64,000 nucleotides of DNA, taken from assembly GCA_031296355.1 (NCBI GenBank), contig JARLFX010000228.1, forward strand, positions 20,375-84,374, read 5' to 3'. The notes under the pieces were generated by a model that ran no database searches, was not told the DNA's origin, and saw nothing but the letters and a program-made list of their open reading frames with translations. Shown here in pieces: positions 27,380 through 64,000 of the stretch (positions are counted from its first letter, which is position 1; every line of letters begins with the position of its first letter). This DNA comes from Acidobacteriaceae bacterium. Lineage in GTDB: Bacteria; Acidobacteriota; Terriglobia; Terriglobales; Acidobacteriaceae. A program made the position numbers and the translations under genes.

Positions 27380-27901
27380 TCAGAGTGCGGGGGGATTTGC
27401 CGATGGGCCTGTACTAACCGAGTTCATCGGCGTGAATGCCAGACCACTTTCATCCGCGAAGAAAATCCGGGGATTGGACGGCTTATAACGGATGGGAATG
27501 TTGCGCCCTAACGCAAAGCGTGCAAATGCTTTTGCGTGTTCTTCGCTGCCAAAATCGCGCGAATAATGACCTGTCCAGTCGCCATTGGCCGCAAAGCTAT
27601 ATGTTGCGATTGTGAAGTAGGTTCCTGACTCGTCATCCAGGTTGTAGCCTACGTCATGCACAGTTGCCCTAACTAAGGGCCACTTTTTTGATTTGTGTTT
27701 ATAGATCAAATAGTGGAAAAGAAGATAGTAGTTCCATAGGCTAAGGCTAGTGACTCCGACTCCCAACACAATCTCAAGGTAATGAGAGCGGGCTCCTTTG
27801 AAGGAATCATGGTATGCGAACATAAGTGCACTCAATCCAAATAACACAACTAACGCATCCCAAAATCGGACGAGTGAGCTCTGATAAGGGAACTCCAACA
27901 T
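27380..27901 (-). CDS. Membrane protein, DUF3592-like
   Basis: 173 residues. Two hydrophobic helices (about 12-32, ALVVLFGLSALMFAYH, and 42-65, LEIVLGVGVTSLSLWNYYLL) precede a soluble beta-rich domain (WPLVRATVHDVGYNLDD...YFTIATYSFAANGDWTGHYSRDFGSEEHAKAF...GRNIPIRYKPSNPRI). The last block (alternating strands, then IPIRYKPSNP) is characteristic of DUF3592-type proteins, so I call it DUF3592-like. The gene is visibly more AT-rich than its neighbours and lies upstream of tRNA-Leu, which hints at later acquisition. Function unknown. Confidence 0.65.
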   Translation of the reverse strand: MLEFPYQSSLVRFWDALVVLFGLSALMFAYHDSFKGARSHYLEIVLGVGVTSLSLWNYYLLFHYLIYKHKSKKWPLVRATVHDVGYNLDDESGTYFTIATYSFAANGDWTGHYSRDFGSEEHAKAFARFALGRNIPIRYKPSNPRIFFADESGLAFTPMNSVSTGPSANPPAL

Positions 27902-62482: not shown

Positions 62483-64000
62483 GTGTTCGAGTCAAAGTTT
62501 GAAGAGAATCTCTACAACGAGCGTCTTGAGACGCTCAAGAAGATCGCCGGCCTCGGCCAGCCCGCGTACCCCAACAGCTACCCCTGCACGCACACCATCC
62601 CCGACATTCGCGCGCAGTACGACAGCAAAACCGCCGAAGAGCTGGAAGCCAGCCACATCGATGTCAGCATCGCTGGCCGTCTCATGGCCATCCGCGCCCA
62701 GGGCAAAGCTGGCTTCGCCCAGCTCCAGCAGAATGGCGCACGCCTCCAGCTCTACGTCCGCAAAGACGCCGTAGGCGACGATGGCTTCGCCCTCTACAAG
62801 CTCCTCGACCTCGGCGACCACATCGGCGTCCAGGGCTACCTCTTCCGCACGCGGACGAACGAGCTCACCGTCCACGTCACCAAAATCACCTTCCTCACCA
62901 AAGCCCTCTTCGCCCTGCCAGACAAGTACCACGGCCTGGCAGACGTCGAGCTGCGCTACCGCCAGCGCTACGTCGATCTCTTCATGAACACCGGCGTCGC
63001 CATCAAGAATGAAGATGGCAGTGAGCAGGCCTCACCCAACGTCCGCGAAGTCTTTGTCAAGCGCGCCAAGGTAGTCCGCGCCCTGCGCAACTTCTTCGAT
63101 ACCCGCGGCTACATCGAAGTCGAAACCCCCATGATGCACTCCATCGCCGGCGGCGCCACCGCCCGCCCGTTCCTGACGCATCACAACGCGCTCGATATTC
63201 CCCTCTTCCTCCGCATCGCGCCCGAGCTTTACCTCAAGCGCCTCGTCGTCGGCGGCATGGACCGTGTCTACGAGATCAATCGCAACTTCCGCAACGAAGG
63301 CGTCAGCACCCAGCACAACCCTGAATTCACCATGCTGGAGTTCTACCAGGCCTACGCCAACTACCACGACCTCATGGACCTCACCGAAGAGCTCGTCAAG
63401 CACGTCGCCATGGAAGTGAACGGTACGACCCTCACCGAATTCAACGGCGAGCAGATCGACCTCGGCAAGTGGACGAAGCTCACCATGCGCGAAGCGATCA
63501 TCAAATTCTGGCCAAATAATATCTATGATTCACCGACATTAGAAATATTTAATAATCCAGATGCTTTCGCCAATTTCGCAATGTCAGCTATCGGTAAATT
63601 GGAAAAGAACGATAAAGCGATTGCGTATCCGATCAATTATCTTGTTGAAGAAAAATATCGAACACTTTACAAAGCACTCGTTGAAACAAGAGACAACATA
63701 TTAAGTCAGAAACTCGCATTGTCAGTGGAAGATTATTCTCAACAGGTTCGCGGCATTCTAGGCCGAGGCATTGCAGCTGTTTTTGAGGCCGTCGCCGAAG
63801 AGCATCTCATCCAGCCCACCATCATCTACGACTTCCCTCTCGCCGTCTCGCCTCTCTCCAAGATCAAGCCCGACGAGCCCGAATGGGTCGAGCGTTTCGA
63901 GTTCTACATCGGCGGCTTTGAAGTGGGCAACGCCTTCAGCGAGCTGAACGACCCCGAAGACCAGCGCCGCCGCTTCGAAGACCAGATGCGCCAGAAGGCC
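62483..64000 (+). CDS. lysS: Lysyl-tRNA synthetase (class II), 3' end beyond window
   Basis: 506 codons are present without a stop. GTG 62483 follows AGAGGATC. The N-terminal OB-fold (about 55-155) has [24 protein letters not shown]; motif 1 and motif 2 are in [27 protein letters not shown] and [64 protein letters not shown] is the late catalytic block. Between [10 protein letters not shown] and [25 protein letters not shown] (residues about 341-430) lies an AT-rich in-frame segment unlike the rest of the gene (63503-63785), longer than the linker I expect there. Motif 3 would lie past the window. Confidence 0.95.

Follow-up and report, generated by a model that had tools for sequence, protein, structure and literature searches.

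Restriction specificity subunits and surface proteins are known to contain recombining modules that are unrelated in sequence. The target-recognition domains of HsdS in the type I restriction systems, for example, are interchangeable, sequence-unrelated modules that are placed between conserved flanks and spread by recombination. The Rickettsia palindromic elements and other in-frame selfish peptides consist of one repeat family that is present in many genes. Essential cytosolic translation enzymes are textbook cases of slow, conserved evolution, and to our knowledge recombining unrelated modules in an essential cytosolic synthetase are new. No description of a cassette of this kind in lysyl-tRNA synthetase (LysRS) was found in those parts of the open-licence full-text literature that were accessible.

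The locus considered here is the lysS gene at the end of the window, by which we mean the whole 64 kb stretch of DNA from an Acidobacteriaceae bacterium that was analysed. It contains an AT-rich block that we take, at a probability of roughly 0.8, to be one allele of a recombining, allelic hypervariable cassette in the LysRS of much of the Acidobacteriaceae. The cassette occupies the site at which bacterial class II LysRS (LysS and LysU) ordinarily has an insertion between motifs 2 and 3. However, the ordinary insertion has 24-30 residues in three enzymes, whereas the cassette of the Acidobacteriaceae has 55-109 residues and many unrelated versions. Similar to the HsdS domains, the LysRS cassettes are unrelated, exchangeable modules between conserved flanks, but the specificity of HsdS is known and its gene is dispensable, while LysRS is essential and cytosolic, and the ligand of its cassette is only hypothetical. 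The Rickettsia palindromic elements and the cassette are both in-frame insertions that are tolerated in a housekeeping gene, but the cassettes represent many families at one site in one gene, judging from the two that were searched. The cassette is best read as a specificity-like module that is carried by an essential enzyme of the cytosol.

The cassette in the lysS gene of the window

The lysS gene (positions 62483..64000, plus strand) starts with GTG and is cut by the end of the window, with 506 residues seen. The curated models identify its product as a bacterial class II lysyl-tRNA synthetase, with scores of 500.8 bits for NCBIfam TIGR00499 (cut-off 427.6) and 531.4 bits for NF001756 (cut-off 468), and both PF00152 and PF01336 of Pfam are matched. 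The E. coli LysU can be aligned to it on either side of the cassette. Motif 3 falls past the end of the window, and the sister protein P0003 reaches a LysRS-like C-terminus.

The borders of the cassette were set by segmenting the gene according to codon log-likelihood. The conserved backbone ends with the left anchor, REAIIKFW (residues 336-343, positions 63488..63511, plus strand), in which R336, E337, A338, I339 and W343 are invariant or almost so in alignment A1, and GC3 drops directly after it. The segmentation places the AT-rich cassette at positions 63512..63784 of the plus strand (residues 344-434), with a hypervariable core at residues 345-426. The right anchor of 16 residues (427-442, positions 63761..63808, plus strand) is a host helix that continues the cassette and varies with the cassette type. 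The GC3 of residues 345-434 is 0.30, whereas 0.836 ± 0.036 would be expected if these amino acids were encoded by host codons, and 0.30 was reached in 0 of 20000 simulations. Both results bear out the foreign codon usage that a sequence-only reading had ascribed to the block. Its GC counts of 36/60 at 63421-63480 and 62/180 at 63541-63720 are exact; the start it had placed at 63503 is 9 nt too early, while the end at 63785 is right to 1 nt. The reading frame is open throughout the block, which also contains the 180-base stretch with the lowest GC in the window. A further low-GC stretch (0.41) is located at 27671-27870, within an ORF of 173 amino acids on the minus strand (27380-27901).

There are 83 residues between W343 and G427, close to the 84 or so that had been given for the spacing of REAIIKFW and GRGIAAVFE. 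Counted from P344, the stretch contains 82 residues in the window and 40 in the short form that is common among acidobacteria, as compared to 24-30 in the three aligned enzymes from Chitinimonas, Stenotrophomonas and Bacillus. The corresponding stretch of E. coli LysU has 31 residues when counted from the alignment, slightly less than the 35-40 that had been given for the E. coli type.

In the structure prediction, the cassette forms a helical extension, with motifs 2 and 3 presumably lying on either side of it. The AlphaFold2 model m6a49ebf465ff contains a predicted helix at residues 359-376 (63557..63610, plus strand; pLDDT ~72-94 by ten-residue blocks) and a long one at residues 390-412 (63650..63718, plus strand; pLDDT ~77-84), and the block that precedes the latter, 381-390, has a value of 58. 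The mean pLDDT was 63 in a first run and 80 with a more diverse alignment, and parts of the catalytic domain are still below 50 in the better model, perhaps as an effect of the gene being cut by the window end. The structural matches of the model are LysRS entries with an rmsd near 24 Å, and therefore only the fold family, not the packing, was taken from it.

When residues 336-436 were searched in 5.8 billion proteins (48 candidates), two proteins of comparable full length were found, the window's own and P0003. The latter is encoded on a separate contig of 1057 bases, and it is 92% identical to the window in the block and 97% in the backbone, with many of the differences being conservative. 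According to the sequence-only reading, the same low-GC block in close relatives would make it an ancestral loop. P0003 does share the block, as a protein, but P0004 and P0005, with backbones that are 93% and 91% identical to that of the window, carry cassettes unrelated to it.

Diversity of the cassette among relatives

To survey the family of G002, taken as the Acidobacteriaceae, 398 genomes were searched, 368 of which matched lysS. We read 130 loci from the best-scoring part of this list and 20 others, which gives 150 genes, or 151 with the window. With the long form defined as a cassette of at least 50 residues, 110 of the genes are long (the window included) and 41 are shorter, mostly with 40 residues, a ratio that is no frequency since the loci were sampled non-randomly. 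The cassettes of the 109 long relatives are in-frame and have 55-109 residues where the short form has 40. Three genes (L188, L204 and L210) have only 6-8 residues at the site, below the ordinary enzymes aligned, and are, judged by their sequences, natural deletions of the cassette. The stretch from MREAI to LIQPT has 65-128 residues where both anchors were found among the best 120 relatives of 7998 scored, and within these 120 the forms with 65 residues occur repeatedly and resemble each other in sequence, while the longer forms mostly differ.

Cassette types were defined on the core, that is, the insert minus 17 residues to the left and 4 to the right, with phmmer (E<1e-3) and single linkage, because nearly everything had been merged through the semi-conserved left anchor in a first clustering. 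The 207 long sequences from the genome and protein sets, which may include one gene twice, were sorted into 111 types, with 39 multi-member types and 72 singletons. The 109 genomes alone contained 64 types, and the curve is unsaturated, with 16, 35 and 51 types at 20, 50 and 80 genomes. The allele of the window is a singleton type among the genomes. The block, which had been thought remarkable as a single insertion, is thus located where much of the family varies.

The edges of the cassettes have recurrent residues, with P at position 7 in 84/110, F or L at positions 12 and 18, and G-x-P-L at the right end, and the anchors are semi-conserved, with REAII-FWP...P...DF to the left and G-K-x-I-A-x-x-F-E to the right. 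The mean net charge of the cassettes is -3.4 (n=110), that is, they are acidic, unlike a tRNA-binding arm. GC3 falls short of the expected value in 105 of the 109 long relatives (median -0.25) and at the cassette site of 33 of 38 short forms (median -0.11), with a difference between long and short forms at p 6e-8. In a smaller first set, the deficit was present in 11/11 long and 14/22 short forms (p 0.16 for the latter). As the short forms are also GC3-deficient, part of the deficit belongs to the site. The cassette of the window has the lowest GC of all 110 long cassettes.

An alignment of 60 proteins contains 33 pairs, long and short forms mixed, with a backbone identity of at least 90%, and the cassette similarity of 30 of these does not exceed the 99.9% null of shuffled sequences. 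Examples of pairs without cassette similarity are P0016 and P0018 (backbone 96.8%) and P0001 and P0004 (92.9%). Backbones with related cassettes go down to 74% identity. Thus, P0006, P0020, P0090 and P0100 have backbones of 75-82% and related cassettes of 43-52%, and the values for backbone and cassette are 75% and 47% for L006 and P0059, and 77% and 29% for P0004 and P0102. The cassette is more alike than the backbone in P0067 and P0075 (97% versus 89%) and in P0058 and P0086 (100% versus 93%). Among the long-form genome pairs, cassettes are similar in 47/77 with backbones of at least 90% and in 29/216, 74/940, 25/1941 and 20/2821 in the bins below 90%. Many of the 47 pairs come from a group of at least nine close relatives (L100, L105, L106, L108, L110, L111, L112, L114 and L116) that keep a single 61-residue allele and is a stable exception within the hypervariable family.

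Exchange, selection and candidate sources

On a genome backbone tree built without the cassette region, the long or short state changes 23 times. The 18 multi-member types of the genome set (63 rows) require 32 changes on the backbone tree where 17 would do, and the 23 types of the protein set (64 rows) require 41 where 22 would do, on trees that are quick ones, 45 of the 152 inner branches of the protein tree being weak and its long outgroup branches meeting.

The borders of the exchanged tract can be seen in L150 and L156, located on contigs of 3.48 and 4.85 Mb, respectively. Between their two lysS genes, the DNA identity is 93-100% as far as residue 324, then 87% at residues 325-334, 67% at residues 335-344 and 36% in the cassette; to the right, it is 60-82% up to residue 464 and then 95%. 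This drop and recovery is as after recombination. The same drop is seen in L127 and L154, whose contigs measure 5.23 and 4.74 Mb and in which the left border falls at residue 345, and L102/L115 and L169/L185 have the same border behaviour. As in a recombining hypervariable module, unrelated cassettes are present in near-identical backbones with sharp borders, except in some groups of close relatives.

Same-type pairs with backbones below 93% (n=60) are more alike than matched pairs by 16 points at residues 427-434 (p 3.7e-8) and by 15 points at residues 435-442 (p 9.9e-10), with p values that should be read with the pairs not being independent. The difference is 3.7 points at residues 335-343 (p 0.053) and at most 0.9 points in blocks further off. 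Hence, the swapped tract usually takes in the helix after the cassette, or the helix must fit the cassette. In DNA, the cassette exceeds the flank in similarity by over 1 point in only 7/192 same-type genome pairs, and its median dS is lower than that of the flank in 5/9 types and higher in 4/9, which indicates that recent transfers are few in this sample.

Two syntenic stretches were used as controls, both of which surround lysS and in which blocks shorter than an estimated 100 nt or so may be bridged by the aligner. The first (G195 and G113, ~169 kb, 89% identity) contains seven replaced blocks of 60-1000 nt, of which only the one in lysS is inside an open frame in both genomes. The second (G302 and G243, ~179 kb, 82.5% identity) contains 18 replaced blocks of 60-600 nt, two of which are in-gene, one in lysS and the other in a loop of a TolC-like outer-membrane protein that was named by eye. 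The latter recalls the variable loops of outer-membrane proteins, whereas LysRS is cytosolic. The replaced loop of the TolC-like protein is repeat-rich and is located at ~1813809-1814049 of G302:C1 and ~4445232-4445586 of G243:C1.

Within types, the median dN/dS (NG86) of the cassette is 0.27, with a range of 0.06-0.82, and the ratio is below 1 in all nine testable types, as calculated from 85 of 192 pairs in the usable dS range, 76 of which come from two types. The cassette versions are thus constrained. The flanks have values of 0.05-0.13, and the 61-residue allele has 0.06, as compared to 0.07 in its flank.

No donor of the window's allele was found among proteins, phages, plasmids or the sets of 20 and 398 genomes. 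The block had no match among small proteins at E<=1 (one candidate), no convincing match in phages and plasmids (best E 0.5 and 0.3), and only two matches in the 20 genomes (E 0.17 and 0.25). Pfam gave no match up to E 10, the block was without a match in the PDB sequences and in PADLOC, PHROGs gave one match (E 0.2), and the viral contigs contained three LysRS relatives with 36-43% identity. Two cassettes were searched in the 398 genomes: that of L006, with positive controls, was found in 3/398, its own included, and always inside lysS, and that of the window was found in 0/398 at E 0.01, a search without a positive control. On these results, a selfish in-frame peptide element of the Rickettsia palindromic type, which would recur in several unrelated genes of a genome, is not supported. 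The variable region of a diversity-generating retroelement is not supported either, as the types are without detectable similarity and of 55-109 residues rather than alignable variants of a single template with constant length. Known inteins, which are marked by a Hint-type splicing domain, are longer than the cassette block.

As for other LysRS genes, the class I LysRS profile PF01921 matched 13/20 genomes at E 0.001, one of them over the cut-off (29.6 versus 27 bits, profile positions 228-337 of 360). As 13 of 14 control genomes are matched too, these are taken as other class I synthetases, a reading by which absence of class I LysRS is not proven. Class II LysRS matched one place per genome in the 20 genomes, except in G016, which contains two partial lysS genes with different cassettes and is probably a mixed bin. 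Two partial lysS genes of acidobacterial type with different cassettes (L084 and L085) are present in the genome of L014, a bin labelled as Rhodanobacteraceae that is probably mixed or contains two strains. In G376 and G390, lysS is matched five and four times (E 1e-50), as compared to the usual one or two pieces, and these genomes possibly contain extra copies or are mixed bins. The lysS match at L025:3001-4305, from a MAG, has one in-frame stop at codon 383 of the range, which may be an assembly error. The lysS flanks of 12 relatives contain ordinary-looking genes, including atp genes and in several cases a YmdB-like phosphoesterase, and no variable partner gene was evident beside lysS among these genes, all of which were named by eye.

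Explanations for the cassette diversity

In our preferred reading, the observed replacement of whole cassettes would result from homologous recombination of lysS genes through the conserved flanks and anchors, and the exchange across the family agrees with the acquired or recombined loop that had been proposed from the sequence of the window. The cassette would be dispensable for tRNA charging, because short and deleted forms exist. Many alleles would be kept because rare ones are at an advantage when an antagonist binds to this region of LysRS, in which case something must bind the cassette surface.

A tolerant surface loop without function, repeatedly overwritten by recombination with foreign lysS and then drifting, would also explain the short and deleted forms and the lack of a recognisable domain. 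However, it is unlikely in view of the purifying selection within all nine testable types, the semi-conserved anchors, the limited range of lengths and the near absence of such in-gene blocks from the two syntenic stretches; in addition, 64 types in 109 genomes appears to exceed what drift among shared alleles would suggest. A cooperative role, in which the cassette docks a cognate and co-evolving cellular partner, such as a regulator or a factor for the lysylation of EF-P or lipids, would fit the constraint on the types and the predicted helical extension. It is decidedly unlikely, as replacement of the whole cassette would break the match to an unlinked partner, and the ordinary neighbours of lysS in the 12 relatives include no evident variable one. 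That the lineage of the window once acquired a domain with a new LysRS activity is highly improbable, even if its allele is a singleton with the lowest GC that P0003 alone shares, since this very site varies in the same way in much of the family. Finally, the abrupt change in composition had suggested an assembly chimera, but such a chimera, or contamination, is very unlikely and the weakest of the alternatives, because the separate contig of P0003 carries the same block in a 97% identical backbone, the same replacement also distinguishes genomes whose contigs reach megabase size, the frame is open and the anchors are conserved.

As a cooperative partner and neutrality both fit poorly, the simplest remaining explanation for the diversity of the cassette is an antagonist that binds LysRS, for example a phage protein or an interbacterial toxin. 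We propose this tentatively, as a possibility that falls somewhat short of even odds, and no candidate for an antagonist or partner of the cassette was found. A wider and yet more tentative proposal is that the LysRS of the Acidobacteriaceae may be a battleground, in which a widespread class of antagonists acting inside the cell, either delivered toxins or phage inhibitors, would target the enzyme at its motif 2-3 insertion, and the bacteria would escape by recombination that swaps entire recognition cassettes.

For practical purposes, lysS is a poor marker gene in the Acidobacteriaceae, and a local drop in GC within a conserved gene can mark a genuine allele instead of an error of assembly. 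Each cassette allele is also a bait with which a partner of LysRS may be fished out. The swapping of cassettes between species is a pattern that is usual for cell surfaces under attack, and the unsaturated diversity of the cassettes suggests that LysRS is seen by something inside the cell and that being seen matters. If the battleground reading is true, cassette swapping in the Acidobacteriaceae would be a cytosolic counterpart of surface-antigen variation.
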